From positions 1 through 58,325 of IMG/VR virus record IMGVR_UViG_3300006919_000061: 58,325 nt of DNA; one strand, given 5' to 3'. Made by a program: the position numbers and the translations under genes. This stretch comes from a virus. Under the pieces are notes generated by a model that was given only the letters and a program-made list of their open reading frames with translations, made no database searches and was not told the origin of the DNA. Within the stretch, counting starts at the first letter, position 1. Every line of letters starts with the position of its first letter. Below, in pieces: positions 4,747-58,325 of the stretch.

Positions 4747-4905
4747 CTATGACTATGCAGTGCAAGCTGGCACCGGTACGCTGAATATGAGTCATGCTTT
4801 AGAACGTACGCTGGGCATGACTATGGATAGTCCCCTTAACGCTTAGCGGGGTATAGCGGTGACGTCTTGCGCGCGTCACTATTCAAGAAGCAAACAGAGA
4901 CCCGG

Positions 4906-35970: not shown

Positions 35971-36605
35971 TGGCTTCTCTCAATCAAATTGTCTACAACA
36001 TCGCAGAGGCTGCGGGTGATTCTACTAACACGGTGCTCCTCGAGCGCTTGAAGTTTATGGTCGAATATTACCGTGCTCTGTTTGTACGCCGTGACAGCGC
36101 ACAGAACTTTAACTTGCCTGACCGCCTTGCTCAGAACTTGACGTTTGAGATGGAGTGGGTCAATGCTGTCGAGGCTTGCGGGGTGTCTCTCCCCTGCCAA
36201 ATCCTTTGCACTAAGGAGCTGGTACCTACACCGCTAAACACTAAGAATGCGAGTGGGTTCCTGTACGTTGGTGCGGTTGACGGACAAGAGAGCTATCAGT
36301 ACATTACGCCGGAACAAGTGCCTTACGCAATCACCGGCAAGTTTACAGGCAACCAGCCTAAGTACTTCTACAAGAACGGACGCATCTGTATCATCAACTC
36401 TAGTGCCATGTGCATTGATGTTAAGATGGTTGCGGAGTCGCCAGCTACGGGCGGACCCCAAGGCGGTGGCGGTGTTACTTGTATTGACCCTGACGCGGAG
36501 TACCCTATTACTATGGATATGGTGCAGCGCATTACTCAGGCAATCATGGGTGCTGAGCTGCGTATGCACAGACCCGATGACGATGAGCAAATCGAACTTA
36601 AGTGA
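35970..36605 (+). CDS. Tail ring-type protein, 211 residues
   Basis: This protein starts MASLNQIVYNIAEAAGDSTN. An N-terminal helical domain with LLERLKFMVEYYRALFVRRD is followed by a beta domain (residues about 80-160) and a Gly-rich linker before a C-terminal helix. This N-terminal pattern is typical of a conserved crAss-like tail/ring protein located just before the adaptor and muzzle genes. It probably forms part of the stacked rings between portal and tail. It overlaps the following gene by 23-29 bp. Confidence 0.7.
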   Translation: MASLNQIVYNIAEAAGDSTNTVLLERLKFMVEYYRALFVRRDSAQNFNLPDRLAQNLTFEMEWVNAVEACGVSLPCQILCTKELVPTPLNTKNASGFLYVGAVDGQESYQYITPEQVPYAITGKFTGNQPKYFYKNGRICIINSSAMCIDVKMVAESPATGGPQGGGGVTCIDPDAEYPITMDMVQRITQAIMGAELRMHRPDDDEQIELK

Positions 36606-40800: not shown

Positions 40801-41950
40801 TCTCGGCAAAGGCCCCATCCAAAACATTGAGGACTACCAAGGTGACATTATCATCCATCACGAGGATGCTATCTTTAAGACGCGCAGCAAGTTTAACTTT
40901 GACGCGTCTGGCATGAGTGTGTTTGTGGGTACGGGTGACATCTTCCAAGCCCCACCGCAGGAATTGTTTGTGGATGCCGCTGGCTATGCAGGAATCTCGC
41001 ACTGGAGCCACGCGCTGTTGTCTCGCGCTGGGTACACGTGGGTAGACTTGCGTGCTGGACGTATCTTTAACTTGACTAACGGCCTTGAAGAGCTGTCTGC
41101 TAATGGCTTGCGTAACTTTATGCGCGAAGAGTTTGTTACAGCAGAGGGCTTGATGAACAATAACAGTAACATCTTTGAGAGTCAGGGCGGTGGGTTTACT
41201 ATTGGCTTTGACCCAGAGAACGACCGCTTATTGTTTAGTAAACGATACACTAACTCTGTAGCCGCAGCTGGCGGAGCTTTGTCCTACGCTACTGAAGGCC
41301 AAACTCTTAGCTACAGCCTGCGTAATAAATGCTGGGTTAGTAACCACACATACTGGCCTTTCCAATACTTCCAGACATATAACAACTTGTTTATGTGGAA
41401 CGAGGTAGACAACGGAGGGTACAGTTTGTCGTCTTCTACTAATGACCGAGGCGGTGTGTTTAAGATTAACGCAGCTGTTCCGGGCACGAACTACAATGCA
41501 GACGGTACAGTTAACGATACACCAGACACAAGCTTTGTAGACTGCGTGTTTAACATGGGCGGCGCTGCTAGCAAGGTCTGGCAGAACTTTAACTGGGTTA
41601 CTCGTAACGGCGAGGATGAAAGCAACCGCGACCGCACTGTTACATTTGACAGAGCTCGGGTGTACAACGACGACCAGTGCTCGTTTGAGAATAGCAACTT
41701 CCGCCTGACGGACAACCGTTGGCAGTGGAACGAGTTCCGAGACGACAGCCTTGCTGGAGCTACGGGTTGGTTTACTAATCTTGAAAACTTCCGGGACAAC
41801 AATGCTATTATGGATGATACCAAGCAGTGGTACGAGCGCCAGCGGTTTGTAAGTGAGTTCCTTGTTATTCGTCTTGAAACTTTGAATACTGATGGCAATC
41901 GCCTATATTTGTTGGATGTCGGGGCTACTGCACGTAAGGCTCGCCGCTAA
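37820..41950 (+). CDS. Tail muzzle / stabilisation protein
   Basis: This 1376-residue protein starts with the characteristic MKPLKGLNRDVAHVDQLAGT, then YRRARNMILDD, seen in tail-hub proteins related to P22 gp10 and to the muzzle of crAss-like phages. The body is beta-propeller-like with repeats containing NADEYSSAQVW and many Trp/Tyr/Asp turns, and ends in a basic ARKARR tail. It closes the tail tip and holds the genome until injection. Its size is normal for the crAss-like muzzle. Confidence 0.85.
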   Translation: MKPLKGLNRDVAHVDQLAGTYRRARNMILDDLAGAMANERAPELLPALDGTDERFASMQICGQFKVPGDRVIFAVHFRYSTEYSVYDANKAEQVLEMLPDGTFTEIALGPQGTFGFDAGDPFQGVGYVNGAGNLVLVYTDGFNKPRYIQYTGTPSTEPFLVFPEAKFPMARPVKEGANDTTGNILAGNYTFMIAYEVQDGSDNLTQYGPSMGSYQIGAGNTDENLRFRGSAKMKFYGLDTSYNYARVYAIRDWQGTETVIYADRFAITDEDQEWTFTGQEVTNTASLTTDALLIPRLSYTSAQTVAVSDDRMFLANLSTDDISYEEGQAVANNISVHWTTDEEGLYSFRWDLSQLDSPDPFSQVILNSYDLRITDYTSLDWSPSASNRNGADNELNTVGGQNQPDDFQGMLGGFMPGEVYALYIAFLKKDGTWTQAFHIPGGGDDGDYSSAARLNTATVAIENVDINQGSGTWNMHVSGRPGYTVNTADEYSSAQVWVDEGLDNTGVRHHLMPTAKQLWQSVNDGYGGESDMNVSPYSHEWCNQTLGLYFDNVVIPASIANKVQGYKMFYAKPQSAVERRIKAYVPTWRHDDDRLRIYDPYLLFTKPQVSDWDIEEVYKRMSYLEQGGHTMQSASIEDYAYLPNNVIYGDFDNEFRESVLGIAVSGGTPFDVDPSTVWDAGYPGFTAGTHQEKLGVISVTARAGGGWHVQSSFDQKITPPEDSNGLSVVNDNFASALGGFHNTVGTAQQWGYDHMPSKNSVSYGAVYEHGDQPGNSGSTYYRADAIDAGTASGDLPDTAYLGWGGMMGSMSVLYRDEDSYHVDYANRPLAATHDLVRVDGAGTYKSNQPVRGGDTWIAPVVVEFMHGGDTANTANVDANPTTGFDTIGKCSYFTWTHILPSKNDLDGYLDTQDLADSWGVASGKTFYNGETLNNFNFGQHWSLLNEKKSAYPAIEGALESNNYPNRIIRSNKQNYESTKVAWTQFAAADYYDNALGKGPIQNIEDYQGDIIIHHEDAIFKTRSKFNFDASGMSVFVGTGDIFQAPPQELFVDAAGYAGISHWSHALLSRAGYTWVDLRAGRIFNLTNGLEELSANGLRNFMREEFVTAEGLMNNNSNIFESQGGGFTIGFDPENDRLLFSKRYTNSVAAAGGALSYATEGQTLSYSLRNKCWVSNHTYWPFQYFQTYNNLFMWNEVDNGGYSLSSSTNDRGGVFKINAAVPGTNYNADGTVNDTPDTSFVDCVFNMGGAASKVWQNFNWVTRNGEDESNRDRTVTFDRARVYNDDQCSFENSNFRLTDNRWQWNEFRDDSLAGATGWFTNLENFRDNNAIMDDTKQWYERQRFVSEFLVIRLETLNTDGNRLYLLDVGATARKARR

Positions 41951-41967: not shown

Positions 41968-42951
41968 ATGGAGCGTAAGCGACTTAAGAAATATTCAGGC
42001 GGTGCTCAAACTAAGCCGACGGGAGCGTTTACTCAAGGAGCTGGGTTTACTGGTACTGCACTGGGCCAAGGCCTTGGAATGTTCGGCGGTATGGCTGGTT
42101 CTGCTATTGCACAGGCCGACCAAGCTGACGGTCACATGTCAACTGGTGGTGCACTGGGTAGCGGCGCTCTTAAGGGAGCATCTATGGGTATGGCCCTTGG
42201 TCCTGCTGGCGCTCTCATTGGTGCAGGCATTGGCGCAATTGGCGGTCTGATGCAGCGTAACAAGTTTAACGAAGAGTCACGTCGGCAGGAAGAGGCAGAG
42301 CAGGAAGCAGAGCGCCGTCGCAATGCTATGGAAGAGCAGATGAAGCTGCAGCAAATGAATGCTGCGCTTGACGCATTTCCTGTCAAGGGTTCTAGCACTC
42401 CTCGTTTTAACATGGGTGGACTTACAGACCCGCCCGGGGGTGAGCGTTACTTTGCTATGCCTAACTACGGCAACAGCATGGACCCTAACGCTAAGCCGTC
42501 TATGGATTTCTACATGGACGGACAGCTCATGCCTTCTACGGACTTTGCAAAGCAGTTGCCCGCTGGCATAAACATTAACGACATTGCAGCTTACGGTTAC
42601 CAGAAGGCAAAACCTACGTACAGCCCTAAGTCTGGCTGGAGCTACTCTGGTCAGAATGACTACATGGAAGACTTTGCTCGCATGCAGGCTGGTGAGTACA
42701 AGCTGGGTGGTATGACGCTTGGCCCGCAGTACGAGGCAGAAGGCGGTGAGATGATTCAGTACCAGAAGGGCGACACGCCTAAGGTATTTGGTAAGGGCGG
42801 CATCTCTGAGGTGAGCTCGCAGGAATACGAAATCAAAGGACCTAGCCACAAGCAGGGAGGCGTAGATATGTCCGACGACAAAGGTGCGCGCATCTACAGC
42901 AACAAGCTGACGGTAGACGCTGCACTTATGGAAAAGCTAAGTAAGCTCTGA
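41968..42951 (+). CDS. Cargo/ejection protein 1, 327 residues
   Basis: The N-terminus has a Gly/Ala-rich membrane-active stretch (residues about 15-95: GQGLGMFGGMAGSAIAQ and LGPAGALIGAGIGAIGGLMQ), then a charged helix (95-125) and a C-terminal domain with EYEIKGPSHKQGGVDMSDDK. This combination is typical of cargo proteins ejected from crAss-like capsids. The Gly-rich helices may insert into the host envelope. Its stop overlaps the next start (TGATG). Confidence 0.7.
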   Translation: MERKRLKKYSGGAQTKPTGAFTQGAGFTGTALGQGLGMFGGMAGSAIAQADQADGHMSTGGALGSGALKGASMGMALGPAGALIGAGIGAIGGLMQRNKFNEESRRQEEAEQEAERRRNAMEEQMKLQQMNAALDAFPVKGSSTPRFNMGGLTDPPGGERYFAMPNYGNSMDPNAKPSMDFYMDGQLMPSTDFAKQLPAGININDIAAYGYQKAKPTYSPKSGWSYSGQNDYMEDFARMQAGEYKLGGMTLGPQYEAEGGEMIQYQKGDTPKVFGKGGISEVSSQEYEIKGPSHKQGGVDMSDDKGARIYSNKLTVDAALMEKLSKL

Positions 42952-44867
42952 TGGCTAAGAAGAATACATACGCTGCTATGATGAAGCAGCTCTCTGGTAA
43001 GAAAGCCAAGTACGAAAAAGGACTGGCAGAGGCAAACCGCACGGGAAACCGTAGCGGTATTGCTGATTATAGCCGCAGGCTGCAACAGCTGACTGCTGGC
43101 ATGGACGAGCTGTTTGACGCTCAGGAAGCTGGCAAGCAGAAGAAGATGTACGGCGGTAAGACCAAGTACAACGATGGCGGCTTTACTGCCAAGCAGTATC
43201 AAGACTACCTTGACCATAAGCGTTACAACCGCAAGCAGGGGTATGGAGAGATTGTAACTAACCCGCACCTCAAAGCGATGGTTCCTTTGTTTGAGGCTGC
43301 TATGGCTGCAGGCATCGACCCGCTCCAAGGCTGGGACGGCACGTCTACTGGTACCTTTGGTACTAAATATGAGCAAGAGACTATTGATAACCCCAACCTT
43401 GTTGTAGAGGATGCAGGGTTTACAGCTAGTGACTACACTCGCTACAAGAACTTTGAGAAGGCTCGTAAGACTAGCAGGGGAATCTTTAAGCCAGAGGAGC
43501 TCACTGCAATGAGCGCTTTGGGTCAGAAGATTTATGCCGCACAGCAGATGGGCATTGACCCGTCTAAAGGCTTTGATGGCATCCCGCGTGACGTTCGTAC
43601 TGACGAGCAGCGCCTTGCTGACCAACGGCAGGGAGAAGCTGACAAAGTTATTAAGTCTACCCAAGGTAAGGACAACCCTTACTCAGACATCACTAACAGT
43701 GACCGAGTTACGGCAGTTCCTTACGACGGCACTCCCGGTGCGTATGTGCGCGACGGCAAGATGTTTGTCAATTCTGTTCGTGCTGGTGGAGCCAACATTC
43801 TGACAGAGCCTCAGCTTAAGGACTGGAAAAATAACGGCCTTAACACGTATCTTGAGAACCTCAATCAGGGCGTGTATGGCGCCCGTAGGCAGTCTAACGT
43901 AAACCCGAATCAGGGTGTTATGACTGGCGGAGTACAAACAAGCGGAGACAATACTCCGGGTGCACCGGGTGTTGACGCCAACGGCAACCAAGTACTTGAC
44001 ACTGTAACAATTACCCCGGGGCCTACACCTGCTCCAGCACCTGCACCTGCACCGCAAACTGGTGGTACGGCTGCAGCTCCACAGCGTCCTGAGTTTACGC
44101 CTATCGAGCCTCTTGATATGCTTGGACCTGAGCGTATCCTTAACACTGCTAAGGGTGACGCGTACTACCCCGGCGGTGTTCAACGTAACATCCTCGGTGG
44201 TCCTCAAGACTTGTCTACTGACCCCGCTATTCCTACAAAGACTACGCGCATGCGTGAGTTTCGGGATAAGATTGGTGACGGTATCAAAGCTAATCCGCAG
44301 GCTCTTGGTATGCTGGCCGGTGGCCTTGCACAGATGTTGCCTACGATGGCTAGCATGAAGCAGATGAAGAACCTTGAGGGTCCTGTGGATATGCCGATGC
44401 AGCGTGTGCAGGCTATGAACACCGACATTCAGGTGGGCAAGCAGATGCAGCAGATTAAAGATGCAGAGGCACGTAGTGCTGCTGCTATCGCGGCTAACGT
44501 ATCTAACCCTGTGGTTGCAGCTGCTATGCGGCGTGCAGGTCAGCAGGCTACACAGAGGTCTATGGCTAACCTGCTTGGCAACGAGGCTACGCAAGAAGCA
44601 CAGATGCGCAATCAGAACCTGCGCATGATGAACGACACTATCAACCAGAACGCAATGATTCAAGCACAGAATCAGCAGCGTGGCGTTGACTTTGAGAATG
44701 ACCGTATTGCGTCTTTGAACCGTATGCGTCAAAGCATGGGACAGACGTTGGGCGGTATGTACACGGACTTCCAGCGTGCAGCTCTTGACCGTGAGAAACT
44801 AAAGTACATGCGTGAGGCGTACGACCCGTACAACCTTGGCGCAACTGATGAAGAACGCAACCAGTAA
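42951..44867 (+). CDS. Cargo/ejection protein 2, 638 residues
   Basis: The N-terminal part is helical with KKNTYAAMMKQLSGKKAKYE, the middle has ring-like or globular segments, and a Pro/Ala hinge (PAPAPAPAPQ, residues about 355-370) leads to a long helical C-terminal half. That half (about 440-620) is rich in Ala, Gln and Met (AEARSAAAIAANVSNPVVAA; QQATQRSMANLLGNEA), as in ejected virion proteins. It probably travels with the next two proteins into the host. The next start overlaps by one base (TAATG). Confidence 0.7.
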   Translation: MAKKNTYAAMMKQLSGKKAKYEKGLAEANRTGNRSGIADYSRRLQQLTAGMDELFDAQEAGKQKKMYGGKTKYNDGGFTAKQYQDYLDHKRYNRKQGYGEIVTNPHLKAMVPLFEAAMAAGIDPLQGWDGTSTGTFGTKYEQETIDNPNLVVEDAGFTASDYTRYKNFEKARKTSRGIFKPEELTAMSALGQKIYAAQQMGIDPSKGFDGIPRDVRTDEQRLADQRQGEADKVIKSTQGKDNPYSDITNSDRVTAVPYDGTPGAYVRDGKMFVNSVRAGGANILTEPQLKDWKNNGLNTYLENLNQGVYGARRQSNVNPNQGVMTGGVQTSGDNTPGAPGVDANGNQVLDTVTITPGPTPAPAPAPAPQTGGTAAAPQRPEFTPIEPLDMLGPERILNTAKGDAYYPGGVQRNILGGPQDLSTDPAIPTKTTRMREFRDKIGDGIKANPQALGMLAGGLAQMLPTMASMKQMKNLEGPVDMPMQRVQAMNTDIQVGKQMQQIKDAEARSAAAIAANVSNPVVAAAMRRAGQQATQRSMANLLGNEATQEAQMRNQNLRMMNDTINQNAMIQAQNQQRGVDFENDRIASLNRMRQSMGQTLGGMYTDFQRAALDREKLKYMREAYDPYNLGATDEERNQ

Positions 44868-46783
44868 TGTCTGTATTTGACAAGTTCCGGGCTAACCCCT
44901 ACGTTAGCACCTACATTGGCGCACCCGTCAACGAAATGGCTCAAGCTATGGCAGCTCGCACACAGCGGGCTGACCAGTTCTATGCGCAAGAGGATGCACT
45001 GGAGGATGCCTTCCGGCAAGACTCGCACCTCAAGCAGGACGACACAATGTTTAACGAGGCGCAGAAAGAAATCCGCGCACAGATTGAGGAGCTCTCTAAG
45101 AACCCTCACCAGAGCCAACGGCAGATTAAAGCACTGTCTCGTCAGTATGCTAACAACGACAACCTAAAGGTTGCTCGTAGTAACTACAGGGCGTACCAAG
45201 ACTGGCAGACTAAGTTTGACGAGGACCCCACTAAGTTTGGAGGCGACGTCGTTGCCGGTATTGCCGCTAGTAAACTTGCTAATTATGGTGGTGCTGCTGC
45301 TGGAGACAAGCTAAAGTTTGATTCTCTGTACGAGCACAAGGACATTAACAAGACGCTGACTGACGCTGCTAAGACTATCAAGCAGCAGCAGGACGTTATC
45401 CAGACTATTGACGGTCGCTTCCTTAACACGAAGACTAAGAAGTACATTACGCCCGAGCAAGCATCGCAGGTGCTTATGGGTACGTTGATGAACGACCCGA
45501 CGATTGTTAAGCAAATCCAAGAGGCAGCTGGCTTCTACGGCATGGACCCGCAAGCATACGCGTTGCAGTTGATTCAGCCGCAGGTGTCTGCTATTACTAA
45601 CCCGCAGTACGACATTAAAAGCCAAGCTCTTCCTAAGGAAGGCAAGGGCAGCGGTAGCGGTGGTAGCGGCTTCGGTACTGGCGTTGGTGCTACGCACGCA
45701 GGCCCGTCTATGGTTGACGAGACGCACGGCGCGTTCCGTGGCATGAATGCAAAAGACATCATTAACAAACTGCGTACCGACGAGGGCGCCGAGAACGATG
45801 TAGTGAAGCAGGAGTTTGTTGAGTTCTACACCAACCAGCTCGGACAAGAGGCTGCTAGCGTGCAAGACAAGCACCTTGTTGAGTACATTGAACAGAATGG
45901 CATGGACGCTATCCATGAGATGGAGATGGGTAACACGACTAACTACAAGCAGTGGCACCTTGAAAAGTATGGAGAAGTTGGCAATATTAGCAGCACGCTT
46001 GAGCGTAAGCTGAGCAGCGCTGGCGTAAACGACTGGTTTGGTGACGCTTACGGCGACGGTGCAGGTAATGCTTTTGCAGATAAGTACACCAACACGACTA
46101 CCAATATGGTTATCGAGGACGCGCACATTGCTCTGCAGGACATGGGCTACAGCGCTGGTGATGTTACTAAGCTTCGTCAGAACGCCTTTACTCAGCTTCT
46201 TGGTCAGGCACAGATTGAGATGCTTGACCCTGAGACTGGTAGGCCTGTCAAGAAGGGACAAGAAGACTTTGCTGAAGCAGGGTACACTGACGGCGAGCTT
46301 ATTGGCTTTGGACAATCTTCAGATTACGCAGAATTTAAGGTCAAGAATGCTGAAGGTGTCGAAGAAATTGTGTATATTAAGATGCCGGCAGACCGCTTTG
46401 GTCTTACCGCTCAGCGCTTCAATCAAGGTATTGCAAAGGGCTACGGTGACGGCAAGAACGTTAACTACGCACAACTCGGTAAGTCAGCTATGGGACTCAA
46501 CCCGCAACTTGGAGCAGAGGCACGTACAGCAACGTCACGCGCATTTAATGGTGACACTGATGTAACTATCCCGTTGTCTCGTTTCTCTAACCGCATGGAT
46601 GGCATGGCCACCTTGGTGCGAGATGCTGACGGTGACTACACCGTAAACGTTAACGGCAAGAACATGTTGGCTAGCAACCCAGCGGCTGCTGCTACTCTTA
46701 CAAACGCTATCAATTCACAAGACGCCAGTACACTTGCTGGTATCTTGTCTGGCATTGGTGTCGAGCTGAATAAAACACAGTGA
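44867..46783 (+). CDS. Cargo/ejection protein 3, 638 residues
   Basis: This protein starts MSVFDKFRANPYVSTYIGAP. Helical regions (about 20-110 and 160-250) are followed by a Gly/Ser-rich hinge (residues about 258-275, GSGSGGSGFG) and a mixed C-terminal domain with several acidic loops. It sits between cargo protein 2 and the giant RNA-polymerase-bearing protein, as cargo proteins do in crAss-like genomes. I see no enzymatic motif. Confidence 0.7.
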   Translation: MSVFDKFRANPYVSTYIGAPVNEMAQAMAARTQRADQFYAQEDALEDAFRQDSHLKQDDTMFNEAQKEIRAQIEELSKNPHQSQRQIKALSRQYANNDNLKVARSNYRAYQDWQTKFDEDPTKFGGDVVAGIAASKLANYGGAAAGDKLKFDSLYEHKDINKTLTDAAKTIKQQQDVIQTIDGRFLNTKTKKYITPEQASQVLMGTLMNDPTIVKQIQEAAGFYGMDPQAYALQLIQPQVSAITNPQYDIKSQALPKEGKGSGSGGSGFGTGVGATHAGPSMVDETHGAFRGMNAKDIINKLRTDEGAENDVVKQEFVEFYTNQLGQEAASVQDKHLVEYIEQNGMDAIHEMEMGNTTNYKQWHLEKYGEVGNISSTLERKLSSAGVNDWFGDAYGDGAGNAFADKYTNTTTNMVIEDAHIALQDMGYSAGDVTKLRQNAFTQLLGQAQIEMLDPETGRPVKKGQEDFAEAGYTDGELIGFGQSSDYAEFKVKNAEGVEEIVYIKMPADRFGLTAQRFNQGIAKGYGDGKNVNYAQLGKSAMGLNPQLGAEARTATSRAFNGDTDVTIPLSRFSNRMDGMATLVRDADGDYTVNVNGKNMLASNPAAAATLTNAINSQDASTLAGILSGIGVELNKTQ

Positions 46784-46815: not shown

Positions 46816-49800
46816 ATGTCTGAGGAGAACACCACGGATGGGGGAACTAATACCCCGAACCAAGAAACATCAGGAAATTCTATATCGAATACCCCTGAGT
46901 ACGGTCTGAACTTTAACAACCTTTCCTTTAGCCAAGGGCCTACCGAGCAGGTACGGAGCTTTGACGAGACCAAGGAGTTCATGGACGACACGACACAGTT
47001 CGGTCGCTATGATAACTTTGAGTCTGCGGCTCTGAACCAGTCTGGCTGGGAGGCACTGGGCCGTGGAGCTATGAACGCTGTGGGCGAAGTCGTCGGCGGT
47101 GGTATGGAAGGTATCGGTGCGCTGTTCAACTGGAACACGCTGACCGACCCTAAGAACACGGAGCGCAACTTCCTTGAGATGCTCGGCCAAGAGGTGCGGG
47201 GTAGCTTTGAGGATGGCAACGAAATCTACGACCTGCGGGCTGGAGAGACTATGGACGTGATGAACGTCAAGTGGTGGGCTAAGAACCTGCCGTCTCTTGC
47301 GTCTACTGCTTCTATGTTTGTGCCCGGTATGGGTGCTGGCTTTGTTGCTGCTAAGGTTCTGTCAAAGGCAGGACGCACGCTGAACAAGATTAACAAGATT
47401 GGTAAGACTTTGGACAAGGCTGAGGAGCTGGCTAGTGTTGCCAAGGCTGGTAACATTGGTTCTGCTGTCGGTCGTCAGTTTGGTGGTGCTGTGGCCATGC
47501 GTCACGCAGAGAACATGCGTTCTGCGCACGACGTGTACGAGCAGGCTTACGCTGACATTGCTAATTCTGACGGAGGCGTCGAGCAGTTCAAGGGCACTAC
47601 TGCATGGCGTGCTGCTGTTGAAGAGTTGGGACACCAACCTACTAAGGAAGAGCTTGCTGAGTACGTGGCAGGACAAGCCTCGTTGCAGTCCTACAAGGTA
47701 AACAGCCTGAACATTGGCTTTGACCTCCTGCACATGGGTGCACTCTCAAAGGCCCTCAAGGGTACGCGGGGTGTGCGTCGTGGGCTCAAGGGCGCTAAGC
47801 AAAAGGCAGCAGCTGCTGGTAAAGAGCTGACGCGTAAGCAGCGTAACATCGCACGGGCTAAGGGTCTGAGCGCTACGTTGTTTGAAGCTGGTACCGAGGG
47901 TATTGAGGAAGCTGTTAACTTTATTGGTGAGAACGAAGGTCGTTACCTTGGCCGTCAGATTTCTGGAGGCGAGCAAACTAAGTTTGGTGACCGTTTCAAT
48001 GAGTACGTTGCTGATGACCACTTGTGGGAGTCTGCATTCCTTGGCGCTCTCGGTGGAGGCGTGATGGCAGGTGGCGGCTCTCTTGTTGGCCGTGGCAAGG
48101 CTACGCGTAACCATGAGAAAATCATGGAGCAGATTGAGACGCGTAAGAAAGCCCTTGCTGAGATTGGTAAAAAGGTTGATGCCGCTAGTAAGACTGGTGA
48201 CGTTCGTGCGCAGCGTGAGGCTGTGCGTGAGGCCGTTACTGCAGAGGCTTTTGGAATGGGAGCCGAGTCTGCGTACAGCGGAACGGCTGACCTGCTGGAG
48301 ATTCAGTTGGCTCAGTTTGAGGAGGCACTGCGCGAAGAGGGTCACAGCCCTCGCATGATTGAGCAGACGCTTAACGACATTGCTAACCAGTTTAACACTG
48401 CTGAGCAGTCTGTTGAGAAGGGACAGCTTGTGGTGCAAGAGCTCGGCCTCGATGAGGACACGGGCATGGAGGTAATGAACCAACTCCTGCAACACGACTT
48501 TGTCGCTAACAAGATTGCAAACAAGCGCCAAGCTAACACTCGTAAGCTGCAGGGTCTGCCCAAGAGCGAAGAGCGTAAGCGGGAGATTATGTGGCACTAC
48601 CTCAACGAATACCTGAATAAGGAAGAGGAGCAGGATGCCAAGGTAATCGAGCGGCTTGAGGAAGCTATGGGCGGCCGAGAAGCTGTGCAGGCTATGACCG
48701 AGCGCATTGTTGGTAAGGTTGAGCAGAACACTACGGTTGACACAGCCGCTGTTGCTGCAGCAAACGAAAAGCTTGACCTTGCTATGGCTAAGGTCGAAAG
48801 CCTTAAGGCTGCAGTTGCTAACCAGTCAGACAACGAGGCTGCTAAGCGTCAACTGGCTGATGAGTTGATTGAAGCTAACGCTGCGGTAGAGGCTGCAAAG
48901 GCTGGTGTCGAGACTGCTAAGGCAGGTACTACAGAAGACATTGTTACCGAGGGCACGCCTATCCAAGAGGTTGGTGAGAACAAAGCAGACGATGTTTTGC
49001 AGAGCGAGATTGAGCTGGACTTCCAAGAAGCTGAGCTTGCTAAGCAGCGTGCTGCATTCTTGAGTGACGAGAACATCGACAAGCTGGTCGAGAAGTCTGA
49101 GGAGCGCAGGGCTGCTAAAGATAAAGAGCGCACTAAGCGGCGTAAGGAAGCTAAGGAAGAAGCTAAGACTAAGGAGGAGCTCGAGGCGCTGAAGAAGACT
49201 GCCGAGACTGTTGAGGAAGAGCAAGAGATTGACGATGCCTTGACGGACATGGTCAACCAAGCTAAGAACAACGAGACCCAGAAGGAACAAGAGCGTAGCA
49301 AGGATGTACAAGTTCCGACTGAGGTACAGAAGGATATTGATACGCTGCTTGAAAACAGCAAGTATGTACAGCTAAACGAGGATGGCTCGGCTTACGTTGA
49401 TAGCCGTACAGGTCAGCGGTACGTCCGCACGACTACGTGGATGAAGGGACCGAACGCTGCAGAGGAGTCTTTCTCTGACACGTTTGGTATTCCGTCCTCT
49501 AACATTGGTAACTCTGTTGACGAGTTTGTCCGTGACTTTATGGACGGCAATGTGCGCGCACCAGAGGCATACCCCCACTTGCCCGTTGAGCATCAAGAGA
49601 AGCTGGCACTGCAACTCATGGAGTTGGAGGCACAGTTTGTTGCTAACGGTGAGAAGGTTATTGCTAAAGACGTCGTGCTGTTTAACGACATGGATGTCAG
49701 CAACTTAGACCCTAGTGCGTCTGGTGTTGCTGGTACGGTTGACCTGTTGACTGTAGACGCCGAAGGTAACTTCCGTGTCTATGACATGAAGACCATCCGT

Positions 49801-52800
49801 AATGCTGCGTCTAAGAAGAAGGTTGTGCCTTTCGAGACCGACGGTATTAATCGTCGTACCGGCAAGGCTAAGTACGGCACTGGAGATAAAAGCTACAAAG
49901 GCTCTCCTACGCTGCAACAGAAGCACCAGAAGCAGTTGTCTGCTTACCGCCTGATGCTGATGAACCAACTTGGACGTCCTGTTCCTGAGATTGGCATTAT
50001 CCCTGTTGACGTTAGCTACGACACGAACGACAGCCTGAGCACGGAAGAGCTGAATGCTATCGTGACTGGCCGCGCCGACTACTTGGGCATGATTGCTCAC
50101 ACCCCGTTGGCTAAGCTTAACGGGTTGACTGAGCCTGAAGTTAACAACGCAGAGCCTGACCCGGACGACGCACCGGACCCGGGCAAAGACGATACTAAGG
50201 ACGAGGACCCTCAGGATAACCAGCCTGTTACGACGGTAGAGTTGGAACCGGGTACTGTTACCATCGAGACCCCTGACCTGATTCAGTTCTTTACGGAGAA
50301 GCTGTCGGTTGACTACGACCGTCACCGTGGCGAACCCTACCTTGTGCACACCGCCAACGGCCCTATCGTTATGGACGAGAGCCTGACGAAGGACCAGATG
50401 CTGCTGTTGCAAGAGGTTATCTCTGGCGCTAACACGGAGCCTATTACTATCCGTGTTGTAGGCGACACTACGCCTATTCCAAGCGTTGAGGTTTTTGACG
50501 CTCTTAAGGATACGCACGCTGCTGATAGCTTGCTTACTGAGAAGAACAAGAAAGGCCGCCGTCAGTACCGTCCTAGCGGTAAAGGCGACACCTTGGCACT
50601 GGACATTTTTGTAGGAGACCAGCGACTTGGCACATTGCCAAACACGAGTGCGCTTATGATGGCTGCACACAGACGTGGTATGGCTGAGAGCACTAGTGTC
50701 ATTAAAGGCGGCAAGAACAAAGGCTTGATGTTCCGTCAGAAATCTGAGGACGGATTTGGCGTTGGTTCACGTGTGGGCGAGGTACGTAAGCACGAGAACC
50801 GCATGATGACTGGGCCTACGCAGGCTGAGCACTTTGAGCGGGCTGCACAGATGCACGCTCTGCGCCAGCAGTTGTGGGAGCTGCACACGGCTAACGGAAA
50901 GAACATCGCTGACGGCGTATCGTTCCGTGTTAACATTAACTTTGGCGAGACTAGCTTTGGCAACAAGGCACAGGGTAGTCTCATCATGGACAGCAGCATG
51001 GAAGTGCGGGCTGAGCAGTATGGTGTGGGTGCATCTATCCGCCGTCACGGTATTGCGTTGATGATGCCTAACACGGGTAACAAGGAAATGTCCTTGAAGC
51101 GTAGTGGTGAGCGTGCTGCTCCGATTACACCTTACGGGTACAATGAGACGCGCCATCAGCAGGACGGGTTTAACCTTAGCCGCCACGAGTCTGGTGCATT
51201 GTTTGTGCCGATTGAAAGTGCAGGCGAGGTCATCTGGGTTAAGATGCCGGGCCAGACTGTAAGCATGCTAAACAACGGCGAGCGCATTGCCCGTGACATT
51301 ATTACGGAGCTTGCGAATCCTACGGCTAACAGCATTGCGCGTGCACAGAACCTTATTGGTAGCAACATTGTCCAAGAGATTGAGCCCGGTGTGTTTGCTA
51401 TCTTTGCAGACAATCGTAACATTAAGGTACCTGAAAGCCCAGAGAACTTAGCAGTGTCTATCTACCGCGACGGTCAATGGAGCACTCCGCTTGAGGAGAT
51501 TGTGCCTAACATGAACGTTGACATTGCAGTCAAGATTGCACAAGGCGACTCTGCATTTAACACCGACGAGTCCTTTACCGTTGGTGGTACTAAGTTCGAC
51601 GGCATCTCTGACTTCGTGGCTTCCGAGATGAAGCTAGGTCACTCACCTGTAGTGGACGGGGACGGCAACGTTATCAGCTGGACGCACCCACTTGCACCGG
51701 CATACCCTTATAACGAAGGCGACAAGGACAAGAGCTTCTCTAACGAGAACACCATGAAGACGCAGTTGACTATGACTGCTACCGTGTTGACGGGTGGTGA
51801 GGTTAAGCCTGTTACTACCTTGAGTGGTAAGGACTTGCTTGACGGTCTTATGGACAAGGACTCTACTGTCCCAGAAGGTGAAAAGGCGTTTGACGTAGAA
51901 GGCGACTTAGACTTCAGCTTCCTTACGATTGCTGCTGCTGAGTCCTCTAACAACGCAGACCGAGCTACCAAGATTGACATGAAGGAGGCCGAAGAGTGGT
52001 GGGCCAAGAACATGAGCTCTGTCCCGTTCAAGCGAGTCAAGGGCATCATCGAGCGTAATGGTCTCCTCGGATACGGTATCTTTGAGAAAGGTGCCGTTGA
52101 GGTGAGCGACCGCGCTGTAAAAGGTACGGAGTACCACGAGGCATTCCACGCCGTGTTCCAGATGTTCTTGTCTGATGACCGTCAGGCTAAGGTCATGGCA
52201 GACGCTAAGCGTTTGTACGGAGCTAAGAGCGAAGAAGCTTTGGAAGAAGATTTGGCTGAGGACTTCCGTGAGTATATGATGACTAGCGGCAAGAGCATGA
52301 ACGAAAAGTCTGTGGTTCGCCGCTTCTTTTCTGAGCTTATGGAGCTTATCAATGCTCTTACTAAGGAAGGCTTTTCCGGCTACCGTAAGGCTAAGTTGTT
52401 TCAGCAAATCAACCGTGGTAAGTTTAACAACGCTAGCCCCCGCGTGCGGGAGTACGCTACGCGTAACATGTTGATTGCAGAGAACCTGCCTGACTACAAC
52501 GAGAACGTACAAAAGGAGCTAGTGCAGAATGTGCAGTCAGCTGCCTTTACCGCTATCCGTGCTGCACAACGCGGCAAGGCTCCTGCGTCAATCATGAACT
52601 TGTACAACGACCTTAAGCAGCTCAACGCTATGAGCCGTAAGGAGTACAACGCTATGGCTAAAGCGCAGGACATGGACGGCATCCAACAGGAGGACCTGAT
52701 TAACCAGAAGATGGTTCAGCTCGGTATGCAGGCTATGGTTCACCAAGCTAACATGGTCTTGAAGACTGCGCCTAATCGTGCAGAGCTTGCTGCTCGCTAC

Positions 52801-55800
52801 AAAAAGCTGTTTAAACAAGACGTTGAGCCTATTAGCAAGTTCTTGTCTGAGCACCCCACCGTGCGCGCCTTTACCAAAAGCGCACTTGATACTGAGTTCA
52901 CTGCCGGTACTAACCAGCACCAGCAGAACAACGACTCGTTTGAGAAGATGAACCCGAAGGACAGCCTGTCGGCTAACGTCCGCAACCTCATCAACACTAC
53001 GCCCGAGGTCAGCATTGAGCTGTCACAGAACTCTCCGCAGATTGAGTTTCACATGGCTGCTGCTCGTTTGGCAGGACAGGAGGGTGACTTTGCTAAGGCA
53101 CAGGAGCACATCGCTGAGGTGCAGAACCTTGTTAACTCTAACGCTACTGAGACACACTTTGGCCTGCCGCAGATGATGCAAGTAGACCGAGTGTTTGCGT
53201 TCATGAGCGAGCGCCTTGCTAACAAGGCTACGCCTGAGGCTATGATTGACGAGCTCTTCCGCATGGGTGACTCGTACCCGCAGTTTAAGTTGCTGGGTCT
53301 GCGCCTTATGAAAGAGACGCCGGACGTGCGCGCTCAGTTCTTTGCAGGCTTCCGCCGTGGTGACACGACTGAGTTGGTGGTGAACAACCGCAAGTTTATT
53401 GAGGTCAGGGGCCCATTCGGTGGTACCTTGGCTAACCACAACCGTGTGCCGATTCAGTTGCGCATGGAAGAAATTGCCGCTGCCAAAGGCAAGGACCTTG
53501 TGCAGACTGCACGTGACGCACAAGCTGCTGCACAACGGGCACTTAAGGAAGTGCCTAACATGACGAATGAGCAGTTTGAAAAGACTGCTAACAAGTGGCT
53601 TGACGTTATTGGCTTCCAGACTATGGACCCGCAGGCACGTAGTGTTGTCTTGGCTAAGATTACACAAGACCCAGATGCACGCGCTAAGCTGTTCTCTAAT
53701 ATTGCTAACGTGCTGGGCGCGTACTCTGGCGTAGCTAACGCCAAAGACGTTACAGACTTGACATCTGACAAGCTGTTTAACAAGCACTTGATGAAGCTTG
53801 CTGAGCAGTTCCAAGCTGCAGACATGGGTGCTATTAGCACTACGTTTAACAACGTGGCTGGCAGCCGTCAGTTTTCTAAGCAAGTGCCGTCGTTTATTAC
53901 GGAGTGGTTCGACCAGTTCCAGAACTTCCCAGAAGGTACGGACATCGAAGCCAAGCTGCGGGAGACTGTCTTCCGTGACCCGCGCATGTACGCCACTACC
54001 TACGGCAAGTTGTTGTTCCCTAACGGAGCAAGCAAGCCGATGGACATGGCAGGCATGGCTGCTATCCGCACGTATCGTCTTGGTGGTAACGAAAGCTCAC
54101 AAGCTAAGTACACGGAGATGACCGAAGAGGAGTGGATGGGTATGCTGATTTCTGCAGTGTCTAATCCGGTTGAGGTTGCGCACAACAGCAAGTACCATTT
54201 CCTGCCCATCACTACGCCGTCTGACGCTACGAACACTATGATGGTGCCGGCGTTTATCTACGACATGCGCTCTGACGCAGGCAAGAAAGCAGCGCGTATG
54301 CAGCTGCGCAAGACTATTAAGTCTGAGTTCTACGAGCTGCAGCGCGTGCCGGGCCGCTTTACTATTGGTGCGGTGCACGAGTACTTGAGCAAAGAGCTGA
54401 ACAGGAAGAACGAAGACGGGGAAGGCAACTTCCAGATTGACATGGCTACGCTGCCAGAGGAGTTGCTTAATGAGGCAGTGGACAAGGCCGTGGGTTCCTT
54501 TGCTAAGGAGGCGCAAGCTCTTGTTGCTGACGAGAATTTCCAGCGCGCTAAGCAAAAGTCTAACCGCAAGGAGTCCAATAACATGGAGCTCGCACTGACG
54601 ATGGTTGTGTCGGGCTACATGAGCAACTGGTCTACTGGTGTGTCTCTTGCAGGTACGCCGAACGAGTTCAGCTCTAAGCTGAAGAAGAACACGGTTGACA
54701 TGCAGAAGCGCCACAAGCACATCCTGTCCCCGGGTGTTGCTAACGCAGGCGTTACTGCTCGCTCCCACTTCCGCAGCGTGACGATGGTTGAGTCCGTCGA
54801 GAATCTGCAGAAGCTTTGGGAAGGACTTGACCAGACGTTTGCTCTTGACGACAACTACAAGAAGGTTGAGATTGCAGACGCTCAGTCCTACGTGAGCCTT
54901 GAGTTCTACGAGGACATCCTGATGGAGCACGGTGACTGGACCCCTGAGATTGGTGCTGCTATTGCAAAGGCCAAGAAGGGTGAGAAGCTGGACGCTAGCG
55001 ACGTGAAGTTGCTGCGCCCGTACAAGCCGTTCTATTACACGCGTCAGTTTGATGCGGACCTCGGCATGTCCCGCTCGTACCAGATTAAGAACTCCATCAT
55101 CCCTGTGGTGGGTGCGCTTAGCCCCGAGTTTAAGAAGTTTGAGGACTGGATGCGCGCGTCTGGTGTTGACCAAGTGCAGATGGGCACGGCCCACAAGGTG
55201 GGGCAGCACAAGAACAACATCCCACTGCGTAACGCAGAGGGTGAGTTCACTGGCGTTGCTCCTACTACTAACGAAGAAAAAGCCTCGTTTGACGAGGAGT
55301 TCGTGTACGAGCTGCCGATGACAGGATACCGCAAGCAGGTTAACGTCACCGACCACTGGCACTCTGACTCCGAGAACAAGCTTGCTAGTCAGCTCGAGAA
55401 GATTGTGACTGCCGCCGCTGTCCGTAACATGGGCGAGGAGGGTGCTCGTATTTCTAACGAGTTCGTCCAGACTATGGATGAGATTTACAAGGAGCAGTAC
55501 GACAAGTTCTTTGGTCAGTTCGAGACTAGCAACGGAGAGATTAACCCCAAGAAGTTTGCTGAGTGGCTGCTTAGCGAGATGGCTGAGGACGAGCTTACAG
55601 ACTCTAGCCGTAAGCTTATTCAGGCTGGCATGTTCACCGCGCCTAGCGTGATTGGTGCAGTGCGTGGCCGTATCTTCTCTGCTGTGCAGAAGGAGGTGAA
55701 CACCATTCAAGTGAACGGTGGTACGCAAGTGCAGGTGGCCAGCCAGTTCTTCCGGACTAACAAGAACCGCTTGCTGCCTATGCGCAAGGAGGGGGACAAG

Positions 55801-58325
55801 ATTCTCCCGGCACAGATTGCTGCGTCTAAGGACAGCTTGCCTAAGGAGTACCGGGACATGACCATCGAAGAGATTCGTGCCAAGGCTCCGGAGGTGTTGC
55901 AGTCTATTACGCTGCGTATCCCGTCCGAGTCTATTAACTCTGGCGCGCTTGTCGAGATTGTCGAGTTCTTGCCTGACGGCATGGACGGCGTGATTGTGCC
56001 GGACGAGTTCGTGACTCAGATGGGTTCTGACTTTGACGTGGACAAGCTGTTCTTCCAGTTCCGTGCTAACGACAACAGCAAGCAAGACAAGCTGTTTGAT
56101 TTGATGAAAGAGGTGTTCGAAGATGAGCGCAACCTTAAGTACATCATGGCACCGCAAGGATTCGACACGTTCTCCGCGAAGGCGAAGAGCCGTCCTATCC
56201 GTACGCAGGAGGCTGAGCAGCAGATTGTACACAACCCGCTCTCGCTTACCACGCACATCAGCATGCGTAGCGATAACATGGCAGGTGTTGCACTGAAGGG
56301 TAAGGCTGCTAACCGCAACATTATCTTTGAGGACCTCATCCGTAACGGTTTTGTCTACGGCGCTCCCCTTACCATCAACGGCAACAGAGCAGGCTTTGAC
56401 TACCGCACGGTGTCCGACACCAACAAGAACATCCACTCCGAGGCTGTGGCTGCTGCAATGGACGGCGCTAAGGACCCGGTGTACGGTAAGCTCGGTATTA
56501 CCGACGACAACTTTAGTATGTTCATGGAGCTCGTCATGCTTAGTGACGGAGACCTTGACGCGGCTATCGACCTTGTACAGTCTGACGCAATGCGCATGGA
56601 GGCTGCAGGCCACATTCGTATTATGGACGCATCCAACGACACTGTTGTTGTGATGGCTCAGACGGAAAAGGGTGAACAGTTCTTGCAGATGGCTGCTAAC
56701 AACAGCAAAGAAAACTCTGCTAAGTATTACCCAGAGAAGTTCCAATTCACTGTACGCGGCAGTAGTAACTTGAACACCACGACCAATGACATGGGTACGC
56801 TCATGGCAGGCATTGGTACGTGGCGTGAGCAGGTTAGCGGTCCGATGCGTCACATCAATAAGGTGATTCGCTTGGATAAGAAGAACGTTAAGAACGACAT
56901 CGAGGGAGTCATGCTGACTGGCTCGGGCAACGAGGACTTGGTGCACGGTTCGTTCTTTACCCCGGGTAGGCCGCACACTTCTGCGACTGAAACCAAGGGT
57001 GAGTTCTCAGCTGCTTTGCCGATTAAGAACCGCATGAAGTCTATGTTCAACGAGACGTCTAAGCTCTTGAACGATTTGGGTGACGGTTACTTGACATACT
57101 TGACTATGCACTCAGAGGACCGCTTGTCTCGCGGACTGAAGATGGCGCAGTGGGATGCGTTCAAGCGTAACCAAGCGGCTGCTATCCACACCGACAAGGT
57201 GACGTACACCGCGATGGGTGAGCGTAAGAACATGTCCCCGGGCCTGCTGCCTGAGAACAAGGAGGACTGGAGTCTCGAGAACTGGCTGCGCTATTTGCGC
57301 ACTAGCGACGAAGTTAAGGGCGACAGCACACCGTTGGGCCGTGTCATCAGCAAGTTGCTGGTGCAGCCCAAGCCATACGAAGTGCGGGGCATCTTCTTCG
57401 ACAACATTACGCTTGTCGGTATTAGCGATGAGGTTGAGGCGCGCCAGCTTGCCGAAGACGTGCAAGAGCTGTACGACTCGGATAACGACGACTTCGTGTC
57501 ATTCGTTGAGGCTATCGACGCGTACGAAGCGCAGCGTTCTGGTTACGGTATGAGCCAGTCTCGTTTGACCGGTATCTTGCCGGGTGATATTACTATGGCT
57601 ATTGCCCGCGCTACGGGTGCACATGGTAAGACGGACGAGGCCATGCGTGCTGAGCCTAACGCTATCATACAGGAGGACATCTGGAATCCTAATGTCCCAC
57701 GTATCAACAAGCCCTTGTCTGCAGCTGTGATGCAGGTGGCTGACTCTGGTATGGTGGGTGTGTTCCGCACTAACGACGGACACGTCATCTTCCCGACGCA
57801 CGAGCAGAACGGTGAGATTGAATGGGGTTCCGCTAAGTCTCCGAACGAAGGTCAGAAGTTTAACGGTAAGCGTATGCTGGAGGGTTTCCAGATTCACCAG
57901 ACTTCTAAGAAGAACGAGAACTGGTACTCCAAGCTGGAGTACGGACCCGAGGTGTCTCGTGATGATAAGATTGAGCACCTCAAGGGCCGGTTCCGTAAGG
58001 CTGGTATCCACGTGCAGGTTGAGTTCGATAGCTCGTTGCCGGAGAACGGCCGCGTGGTTATTGACAAGGGAGCTGCTAAGATTACCCTGCACCCTGACAC
58101 GCTGCAAGGCGACACTATCGCACACGAGTTTGGCCACATCTTGGTCGAGGGCTTGGGCTATAGCAACCCGCTGGTGCAGCAAGGTATCGAGGAGCTGCGT
58201 GACTCTGAGCTGTGGGCACAGGTCGAGGAGGCCTACCCTGAGCTGAACGACCGCGACCTCGGTATGGAGGTACTCGTTACTGCCATTGGCCGTAAGGGTA
58301 GTGAGCTGTTTGAGAACCAGAAGAA
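46816..58325 (+). CDS. Giant virion protein with nuclease, zincin and RNA polymerase domains (partial)
   Basis: This frame is open to the window edge, giving at least 3836 residues without a stop. Visible parts, in order: a Gly-rich segment ending WESAFLGALGGG (404-415), suggestive of membrane insertion; a Lys/Glu coiled coil (about 740-830); a PD-(D/E)XK nuclease with Asp976, Asp990 and Lys992 (VYDMKT), then a conserved QLSAYR; a zincin HEAFH (1774-1778) with likely third ligand in EEDLAEDF (1810-1817); a crAss-like RNA polymerase with DAQSY (2688-2692), YKPF (2736-2739), RIPSESINSG (from 3034) and catalytic GSDFDVDK (3070-3077, DFDVD 3072-3076); and a second zincin HEFGH (3770-3774). Related polymerases are packaged in the virion and transcribe early genes after injection. 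The ATG at 46816 follows the cargo 3 stop by 32 nt. Confidence 0.93.
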   Translation, partial: MSEENTTDGGTNTPNQETSGNSISNTPEYGLNFNNLSFSQGPTEQVRSFDETKEFMDDTTQFGRYDNFESAALNQSGWEALGRGAMNAVGEVVGGGMEGIGALFNWNTLTDPKNTERNFLEMLGQEVRGSFEDGNEIYDLRAGETMDVMNVKWWAKNLPSLASTASMFVPGMGAGFVAAKVLSKAGRTLNKINKIGKTLDKAEELASVAKAGNIGSAVGRQFGGAVAMRHAENMRSAHDVYEQAYADIANSDGGVEQFKGTTAWRAAVEELGHQPTKEELAEYVAGQASLQSYKVNSLNIGFDLLHMGALSKALKGTRGVRRGLKGAKQKAAAAGKELTRKQRNIARAKGLSATLFEAGTEGIEEAVNFIGENEGRYLGRQISGGEQTKFGDRFNEYVADDHLWESAFLGALGGGVMAGGGSLVGRGKATRNHEKIMEQIETRKKALAEIGKKVDAASKTGDVRAQREAVREAVTAEAFGMGAESAYSGTADLLEIQLAQFEEALREEGHSPRMIEQTLNDIANQFNTAEQSVEKGQLVVQELGLDEDTGMEVMNQLLQHDFVANKIANKRQANTRKLQGLPKSEERKREIMWHYLNEYLNKEEEQDAKVIERLEEAMGGREAVQAMTERIVGKVEQNTTVDTAAVAAANEKLDLAMAKVESLKAAVANQSDNEAAKRQLADELIEANAAVEAAKAGVETAKAGTTEDIVTEGTPIQEVGENKADDVLQSEIELDFQEAELAKQRAAFLSDENIDKLVEKSEERRAAKDKERTKRRKEAKEEAKTKEELEALKKTAETVEEEQEIDDALTDMVNQAKNNETQKEQERSKDVQVPTEVQKDIDTLLENSKYVQLNEDGSAYVDSRTGQRYVRTTTWMKGPNAAEESFSDTFGIPSSNIGNSVDEFVRDFMDGNVRAPEAYPHLPVEHQEKLALQLMELEAQFVANGEKVIAKDVVLFNDMDVSNLDPSASGVAGTVDLLTVDAEGNFRVYDMKTIRNAASKKKVVPFETDGINRRTGKAKYGTGDKSYKGSPTLQQKHQKQLSAYRLMLMNQLGRPVPEIGIIPVDVSYDTNDSLSTEELNAIVTGRADYLGMIAHTPLAKLNGLTEPEVNNAEPDPDDAPDPGKDDTKDEDPQDNQPVTTVELEPGTVTIETPDLIQFFTEKLSVDYDRHRGEPYLVHTANGPIVMDESLTKDQMLLLQEVISGANTEPITIRVVGDTTPIPSVEVFDALKDTHAADSLLTEKNKKGRRQYRPSGKGDTLALDIFVGDQRLGTLPNTSALMMAAHRRGMAESTSVIKGGKNKGLMFRQKSEDGFGVGSRVGEVRKHENRMMTGPTQAEHFERAAQMHALRQQLWELHTANGKNIADGVSFRVNINFGETSFGNKAQGSLIMDSSMEVRAEQYGVGASIRRHGIALMMPNTGNKEMSLKRSGERAAPITPYGYNETRHQQDGFNLSRHESGALFVPIESAGEVIWVKMPGQTVSMLNNGERIARDIITELANPTANSIARAQNLIGSNIVQEIEPGVFAIFADNRNIKVPESPENLAVSIYRDGQWSTPLEEIVPNMNVDIAVKIAQGDSAFNTDESFTVGGTKFDGISDFVASEMKLGHSPVVDGDGNVISWTHPLAPAYPYNEGDKDKSFSNENTMKTQLTMTATVLTGGEVKPVTTLSGKDLLDGLMDKDSTVPEGEKAFDVEGDLDFSFLTIAAAESSNNADRATKIDMKEAEEWWAKNMSSVPFKRVKGIIERNGLLGYGIFEKGAVEVSDRAVKGTEYHEAFHAVFQMFLSDDRQAKVMADAKRLYGAKSEEALEEDLAEDFREYMMTSGKSMNEKSVVRRFFSELMELINALTKEGFSGYRKAKLFQQINRGKFNNASPRVREYATRNMLIAENLPDYNENVQKELVQNVQSAAFTAIRAAQRGKAPASIMNLYNDLKQLNAMSRKEYNAMAKAQDMDGIQQEDLINQKMVQLGMQAMVHQANMVLKTAPNRAELAARYKKLFKQDVEPISKFLSEHPTVRAFTKSALDTEFTAGTNQHQQNNDSFEKMNPKDSLSANVRNLINTTPEVSIELSQNSPQIEFHMAAARLAGQEGDFAKAQEHIAEVQNLVNSNATETHFGLPQMMQVDRVFAFMSERLANKATPEAMIDELFRMGDSYPQFKLLGLRLMKETPDVRAQFFAGFRRGDTTELVVNNRKFIEVRGPFGGTLANHNRVPIQLRMEEIAAAKGKDLVQTARDAQAAAQRALKEVPNMTNEQFEKTANKWLDVIGFQTMDPQARSVVLAKITQDPDARAKLFSNIANVLGAYSGVANAKDVTDLTSDKLFNKHLMKLAEQFQAADMGAISTTFNNVAGSRQFSKQVPSFITEWFDQFQNFPEGTDIEAKLRETVFRDPRMYATTYGKLLFPNGASKPMDMAGMAAIRTYRLGGNESSQAKYTEMTEEEWMGMLISAVSNPVEVAHNSKYHFLPITTPSDATNTMMVPAFIYDMRSDAGKKAARMQLRKTIKSEFYELQRVPGRFTIGAVHEYLSKELNRKNEDGEGNFQIDMATLPEELLNEAVDKAVGSFAKEAQALVADENFQRAKQKSNRKESNNMELALTMVVSGYMSNWSTGVSLAGTPNEFSSKLKKNTVDMQKRHKHILSPGVANAGVTARSHFRSVTMVESVENLQKLWEGLDQTFALDDNYKKVEIADAQSYVSLEFYEDILMEHGDWTPEIGAAIAKAKKGEKLDASDVKLLRPYKPFYYTRQFDADLGMSRSYQIKNSIIPVVGALSPEFKKFEDWMRASGVDQVQMGTAHKVGQHKNNIPLRNAEGEFTGVAPTTNEEKASFDEEFVYELPMTGYRKQVNVTDHWHSDSENKLASQLEKIVTAAAVRNMGEEGARISNEFVQTMDEIYKEQYDKFFGQFETSNGEINPKKFAEWLLSEMAEDELTDSSRKLIQAGMFTAPSVIGAVRGRIFSAVQKEVNTIQVNGGTQVQVASQFFRTNKNRLLPMRKEGDKILPAQIAASKDSLPKEYRDMTIEEIRAKAPEVLQSITLRIPSESINSGALVEIVEFLPDGMDGVIVPDEFVTQMGSDFDVDKLFFQFRANDNSKQDKLFDLMKEVFEDERNLKYIMAPQGFDTFSAKAKSRPIRTQEAEQQIVHNPLSLTTHISMRSDNMAGVALKGKAANRNIIFEDLIRNGFVYGAPLTINGNRAGFDYRTVSDTNKNIHSEAVAAAMDGAKDPVYGKLGITDDNFSMFMELVMLSDGDLDAAIDLVQSDAMRMEAAGHIRIMDASNDTVVVMAQTEKGEQFLQMAANNSKENSAKYYPEKFQFTVRGSSNLNTTTNDMGTLMAGIGTWREQVSGPMRHINKVIRLDKKNVKNDIEGVMLTGSGNEDLVHGSFFTPGRPHTSATETKGEFSAALPIKNRMKSMFNETSKLLNDLGDGYLTYLTMHSEDRLSRGLKMAQWDAFKRNQAAAIHTDKVTYTAMGERKNMSPGLLPENKEDWSLENWLRYLRTSDEVKGDSTPLGRVISKLLVQPKPYEVRGIFFDNITLVGISDEVEARQLAEDVQELYDSDNDDFVSFVEAIDAYEAQRSGYGMSQSRLTGILPGDITMAIARATGAHGKTDEAMRAEPNAIIQEDIWNPNVPRINKPLSAAVMQVADSGMVGVFRTNDGHVIFPTHEQNGEIEWGSAKSPNEGQKFNGKRMLEGFQIHQTSKKNENWYSKLEYGPEVSRDDKIEHLKGRFRKAGIHVQVEFDSSLPENGRVVIDKGAAKITLHPDTLQGDTIAHEFGHILVEGLGYSNPLVQQGIEELRDSELWAQVEEAYPELNDRDLGMEVLVTAIGRKGSELFENQK

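Follow-up and report, generated by a model that had tools for sequence, protein, structure and literature searches.

The window analysed here is a whole viral record of 58,325 bp (IMG/VR IMGVR_UViG_3300006919_000061). It ends inside a giant open reading frame which carries the motifs of a nuclease, of two HExxH metalloproteases (zincins) and of an RNA polymerase, and which raises the question of what such a gene is, and whether its product has to be cut to do its work. A sequence-only reading had taken it for a polyprotein whose zincins release a nuclease, a polymerase and a protease part.

The phage and its giant gene

The matches of its terminase, portal, major capsid, ring and muzzle proteins assign the phage to the crassviruses. 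The relevant genes are the following:

13300..15333, plus strand: terminase large subunit (phrog_6681, 3.7e-143)
15337..17484, plus strand: portal protein (phrog_6547, 1.9e-129)
18691..20118, plus strand: major capsid protein (phrog_11589, 2.5e-91)
35970..36605, plus strand: crassvirus ring protein 2, a lineage marker (PF25702, 3.7e-24)
37820..41950, plus strand: crassvirus muzzle (tail) protein, a lineage marker (PF25731, 3.6e-20)
41968..42951, plus strand: 327-aa Gly-zipper protein, resembling cr118_1 gp12 (E 7.5e-11 when six proteins were compared)
42951..44867, plus strand: 638-aa ORF, second in cargo position, no match found
44867..46783, plus strand: 638-aa ORF directly upstream of the giant gene, in the crassvirus cargo position as in crAss001 and cr118, no sequence match found
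46816..58325, plus strand: giant transcription/cargo gene, truncated at the end of the contig

The giant gene is located downstream of the muzzle gene and of three genes in cargo position, in the same order as in other crassviruses. The two consecutive 638-aa ORFs (42951-46783) occupy the site of the crassvirus cargo proteins gp45 and gp46, with no detectable match to either.

The frame 46816..58323 (plus strand, ATG start) has 3,836 codons and zero stops up to the contig end, an event whose probability is about 10^-78 from the base composition. The four enzymatic motifs reported earlier are indeed all in this single uninterrupted frame: D976 and D990-M-K992, HEAFH (1774-1778), RIPSESINS (3034-3042) followed by DFDVD (3072-3076), and HEFGH (3770-3774). 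The full protein was expected to be larger still, and the missing downstream sequence is supplied by a 99% identical contig (IMGVR_UViG_3300025769_000233, L002 below), in which the complete gene encodes 4,981 aa (L002:1301-16246). The genes beyond it are oppositely oriented, and include ThyX and a second PD-(D/E)XK nuclease.

A contig that wrongly joins separate genes can be discarded as an explanation. No support for such an artefact was found, and the same open gene is present in the second contig (99%) and in the diverged relatives L013-L016 and L018 (30-56% identity). An alternative genetic code or read-through is unnecessary in the window. A few relatives do have recoded stops: the frame of L130 is open only with TGA read-through, and those of L028, L036, L040 and L062 only with TAG read-through, which suggests that these five are recoded crassviruses.

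The modules of the chain

The following modules were recognized in the window; a C-terminal module follows in the part of the gene that L002 supplies.

46993..48165, plus strand: N-terminal module (aa 60-450), from BLASTP and HMM, common to p-crAssphage gp45, phi14:2 gp67 and crAss001 gp47
49486..50025, plus strand: putative RecB/Cas4-like PD-(D/E)XK nuclease (aa 891-1070; D976, D990, K992), from Pfam, PHROG, AF2 and the conserved motif
51793..52455, plus strand: zincin 1 (aa 1660-1880; HEAFH 52135-52149; downstream EE/LAE), from conservation, AF2 and fold match
54814..57753, plus strand: two-barrel DNA-dependent RNA polymerase (aa 2667-3646; DFDVD 56029-56043), from BLASTP, AF2 and Foldseek
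57883..58323, plus strand: zincin 2, from aa 3690 into the missing end (about aa 3880; HEFGH 58123-58137), from conservation and AF2 topology

Along the chain, the identity to relatives is highest in aa 151-450, 901-1050 (74% with L014), 1651-1900, 2551-3300, 3751-3900 and 4501-4800, and these six peaks correspond to the N-module, nuclease, zincin 1, polymerase, zincin 2 and C-module, respectively. The N-module matches p-crAssphage gp45 in BLASTP (aa 72-426, 4e-21) and the C-module matches phi14:2 gp65 (aa 4523-4971, 6e-12). When the full protein was shuffled 2,000 times, at least two HExxH motifs arose in 0.5% of the shuffles, DFDxD in 4%, and a RIP-DFDxD pair spaced roughly as in the window protein in none (0 of 2,000). 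The bare D...DxK pattern was found in 100% of them, and the nuclease motif is therefore uninformative by itself. It is sequence conservation and homology that carry the case for the nuclease, the zincins and the polymerase.

The combination of RIP-x(4)-NS and DFDxD had been read as the signature of the two-barrel crAss-like RNA polymerase, and an AlphaFold model of this segment had been proposed as a check. The AF2 model of aa 2655-3850 (pLDDT 79, pTM 0.76) confirms this assignment: it has a two-barrel fold like that of 6vr4, the virion polymerase of phi14:2 (Foldseek E 4.7e-25; VIA Z 18.3, rmsd 5.2, 824 residues aligned), the next match being the QDE-1/RDR family with a Z of 11. In BLASTP with the full protein, aa 2624-3079 match phi14:2 gp66 (1e-12), and p-crAssphage gp44 was also matched. 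Searches of Pfam, PHROGs and NCBIfam returned no named match for the polymerase or for either zincin. Traits of a Crassvirales virion RNA polymerase found here are DFDxD with an upstream RIP in a homologous core, the two-barrel fold, and the site after the muzzle and cargo genes. In L084 and L089, the conserved core of the polymerase is interrupted midway, which leaves two ORFs separated by about 480 bases (L084:8997-9476, L089:9015-9491), and no Rfam intron match was found at the break.

The Pfam model PDDEXK_1 scores 22.4 bits in the nuclease region, just above its cut-off of 22, and matches 7 of the 36 members of the alignment; the exonuclease family phrog_298 is also matched. The motif residues D976 and D990-M-K992, which are conserved in relatives, lie within GTVDLLTVDAEGNFRVYDMKT, whose first residue is 973. 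The AF2 model of aa 830-1890 has a mean pLDDT of 56.6 and is poor outside the nuclease and zincin 1. The nuclease block itself reaches a local pLDDT of about 85-91, and resembles enzymes of the AddB/RecB/AdnA/Cas4 family with middling Z values of 5-6. These results agree with the PD-(D/E)XK nuclease proposed earlier, and aa 891-1070 are predicted to cleave DNA. The nuclease is located before zincin 1 in the window, L014, L050 and L076, and after zincin 2 or within the C-terminal part in L045, L086 and the L039/L078 clade. Judging from these sequences, it is an accessory domain, gained and lost. Some of the large transcription proteins have been described as containing PD-(D/E)XK domains (Yutin et al. 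2021, PMC7886860).

In zincin 1, all 12 aligned sequences share the H, E and H of the motif and the EE downstream of it. Structural matches of its AF2 model (pLDDT about 90) include anthrax lethal factor, in its catalytic domain (Z 8.5), and zincins of the IrrE type, the fold class to which the metallopeptidase (MPTase) of the N4 polymerase also belongs (Iyer et al. 2017, PMC5512222). In BLASTP, aa 1745-1870 match the zincin of cr118_1 gp14 (4e-12). For zincin 2, 13 columns do not vary among 15 sequences; H, E, H and a downstream E are among them, the third ligand being the Glu of MEVLVTAIG. The model of aa 2655-3850 predicts for it a zincin-like topology, helix-three strands-HExxH helix, with a pLDDT of about 90. 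Both HExxH sites are strictly kept in the window clade (L013-L016, L018). The two metalloproteases seen by the sequence-only reading, and their position on either side of the polymerase, thus stand: both zincins are real as judged from conservation and models, and are predicted to be proteolytic. Their profiles are only weakly similar (39.5%), which speaks against recent duplicates. A literature search on crAss and zincin gave nothing useful.

The crassvirus N-module model also gives matches near the N-terminus of N4-like virion polymerases (aa 229-612 of N4 gp50, L174, against aa 60-620 of the window protein). Eight of ten Schitoviridae score 16-27 bits, versus at most 8.3 for all non-homologous controls. 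The reverse search gave no confirmation, and the profile-profile comparison gave 12%, no better than block-shuffled controls. The N-module may be an ejection module common to unrelated polymerases. Model searches gave no signal of homology to N4 gp50 for the C-module, the polymerase or the zincins. The cyanobacterial Leptolyngbya phage Lbo-JY46 encodes a protein of 2,748 aa (XAI97381, L172:9104-17350) in which the crassvirus C-module (E 3.5e-106) is associated with zincin 2 (HEFMH) and a GNAT acetyltransferase. No match to the crass polymerase was found in this protein or in the three preceding ORFs, and by these matches the unit of zincin 2 and C-module occurs apart from the polymerase.

One block in one, two or three chains

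This combination of modules is already known. In crAss001 (Kehishuvirus primarius), searches with the module models show that gp47 consists of the N-module, the PD-(D/E)XK nuclease and zincin 1 (HEAFH at 2157), gp50 is the polymerase (DFDVD at 1483), and gp49 contains a dead zincin 2 and the C-module. The same six modules are located at the same site, after the muzzle and cargo genes. They are distributed over three proteins, with gp49 and gp50 on the other strand, whereas the window has a single chain in which both zincins are intact. The window gene is almost certainly a complete crassvirus transcription block in the form of a 4,981-aa chain, the one-chain counterpart of crAss001 gp47, gp50 and gp49.

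The same modules are divided differently in other phages. The phi14:2 polymerase gp66, whose two-barrel core and DFDxD are shared with the window protein, is a separate protein of 2,180 aa with the flanking modules on gp67 and gp65. In p-crAssphage, gp45, annotated as 'RNAP associated protein fused to zincin protease', contains the N-module and a zincin, and gp44 the polymerase and the C-module; no nuclease domain was found in either. The gp14 of cr118_1 ('exonuclease V', 4,946 aa) combines zincin 1 and the polymerase in one giant ORF, like the window protein, but the C-module is separate (gp15) and zincin 2 is dead. Polymerase genes of up to about 6,000 aa are reported for Crassvirales (review, PMC10136315).

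The virion RNA polymerase of N4-type phages (gp50 of Schitoviridae) is likewise an ejected giant polymerase with a zincin MPTase, and is packaged uncut (PMC5512222), but its T7-like core is unrelated to the two-barrel fold. The polymerase model has no match to N4 gp50, and the window protein is not an N4-like virion polymerase. The polyvalent proteins of Iyer et al. (2017, PMC5512222) are similarly single ejected chains with unrelated enzyme domains and between one and five zincins; crAss phages are absent from that paper, whose RNA polymerase examples are N4-like. The window gene does place several unrelated enzyme domains in one phage protein, and its position points to late expression.

The survey of these blocks consisted of two scans of viral contigs plus named phages, with counts limited to non-redundant blocks that have all three core modules: N-module (N), polymerase (R) and C-module (C). 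N-modules were counted with HMMER without filters; a filtered run missed phi14:2 gp67 and led to the same conclusion. The order N-module, (nuclease), zincin 1, polymerase, zincin 2, C-module is constant and the number of ORFs varies. The 86 blocks comprise 18 in one chain, 23 with N and R fused and C separate, 8 with N separate and R and C fused, and 37 in three pieces. On a quick polymerase tree, the fusion state changes at least 6 times and the zincin state 7 times. In 17 of 18 split loci, the C-terminal ORF starts with 42-214 aa that precede zincin 2. L029:1118-21340 is a single frame with three HExxH motifs; it measures 6,741 aa or more, as no stop is reached before the locus ends.

Presence in the virion and a function in early transcription are known for phi14:2 and crAss001 (PMC10172136, PMC10136315). 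By analogy, the giant protein is very probably a virion cargo that serves early transcription.

Proposed cutting of the chain and other possible roles of the zincins

If the zincins were the scissors of a self-cutting polyprotein, one would expect fused forms to retain them and split forms to be free to lose them, but the survey shows the reverse trend. Of the 18 fused blocks, 3 have detected intact HExxH zincins, all in the window clade (the window itself and two others), versus 29 of 68 split blocks (Fisher p 0.056). These counts are phylogenetically non-independent, since the states follow a few clades; a paired test is powerless, and other zincin types may have been overlooked. The same counts speak against zincin presence being a consequence of fusion. 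With the same reservations, no HExxH is found anywhere in 9 of the 18 fused blocks, compared to 7 of the 68 split ones. In a marine-type fused clade (L039, L077, L078, L097, L127), both zincin folds are kept and the catalytic residues are replaced; where the sites are readable, YWEAFRR and PEEAGHF or PEETAHF occur instead of HExxH. The chains of these five are about 5,500-5,640 aa long and are candidate pseudo-proteases.

According to the polyprotein reading, the zincins would cut at both joints, during assembly or after ejection, and free the nuclease, the polymerase and the C-terminal part. In favor of this reading, the window clade conserves both zincins in intact form, they are located at joints that are gene borders in split relatives, and a precedent exists in DdrB of phage P1, which is processed, probably by its own MPTase (Iyer et al. 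2017, PMC5512222). Their location is equally well explained by ancestry from separate proteins, and the joints themselves are not conserved, the identity to relatives being low there. A protease in cis is not kept wherever the chain is fused; it is kept in the window clade, as local conservation. Split blocks, in which the modules are separate genes, often retain zincins of the active type.

Data on virions point the same way. The crAss001 proteins gp47, gp49 and gp50 are virion proteins with predicted masses of 262.5, 154.5 and 276.9 kDa (PMC10172136), and the bands excised from virion gels for mass spectrometry include 150, 270 and >300 kDa (PMC6235969). From these masses, we infer that the three proteins are present near their unprocessed size, and an intact HEAFH zincin, that of gp47, is therefore no bar to recovering near full-size proteins. 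The N4 polymerase carries an MPTase and is packaged uncut (PMC5512222), which shows that a giant chain can be ejected without being cut. Fused blocks without HExxH, together with the near-full masses in crAss001, weaken self-cutting as a general rule, and the earlier claim of a self-cutting polyprotein is not borne out. We regard it as improbable, and give only a small chance to its local form, in which the fused chain of the window clade is a true polyprotein, cut at both joints in the capsid or after ejection. The chain probably has no obligation to cut itself.

Alternatively, the zincins may be effectors that cut host proteins after ejection, as in the polyvalent-protein model, whether the block is one chain or three. 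This can be held tentatively: active-type zincins occur in fused and split blocks alike, and no domain is more common in ejected polyvalent proteins than the zincin MPTase, for which this role has been proposed (PMC5512222), but the loss of zincins in many lineages shows that they are not essential to all crassviruses. It is rather doubtful that the zincins serve mainly in structure or packaging and can do without catalysis. Folds with dead sites are kept in the L039/L078 clade, crAss001 gp49 and cr118_1 gp15, and the MPTase-bearing region of the N4 polymerase is needed for encapsidation (PMC5512222), but the window clade and many split blocks show strict conservation of H, E, H and the third ligand.

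We thus favor, with a probability of about 0.75, a fused transcription block that is virion cargo and whose zincins are not obligatory scissors. The chain would run from the N-terminal module through the PD-(D/E)XK nuclease, zincin 1, the two-barrel polymerase and zincin 2 to the C-terminal module. For the packaging, the ejection and the state of the chain, this picture is drawn from relatives: the protein would be made late and packed into the capsid together with the cargo proteins encoded upstream. On ejection it would thread through the tail into the bacterium, where the polymerase would transcribe the early genes, and all of this is most likely possible with the chain uncut. The zincins would be inherited from ancestral separate proteins, zincin 1 near the joint between the N-terminal part and the polymerase, zincin 2 at the head of the C-terminal protein. 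Where still active, they probably act on another target or after entry.

The transcription apparatus of crassviruses is one colinear set of modules that recurs as one, two or three chains. If true, a polyprotein in the window clade would be a rare strategy for a tailed DNA phage. Nature already offers a comparison for that model, since some fused blocks lack zincins or carry inactive ones and some split blocks have active ones. With this comparison, the function of the zincins that phages eject becomes testable in culture, for instance in crAss001, where gp47 has both the nuclease and the zincin of the window protein.
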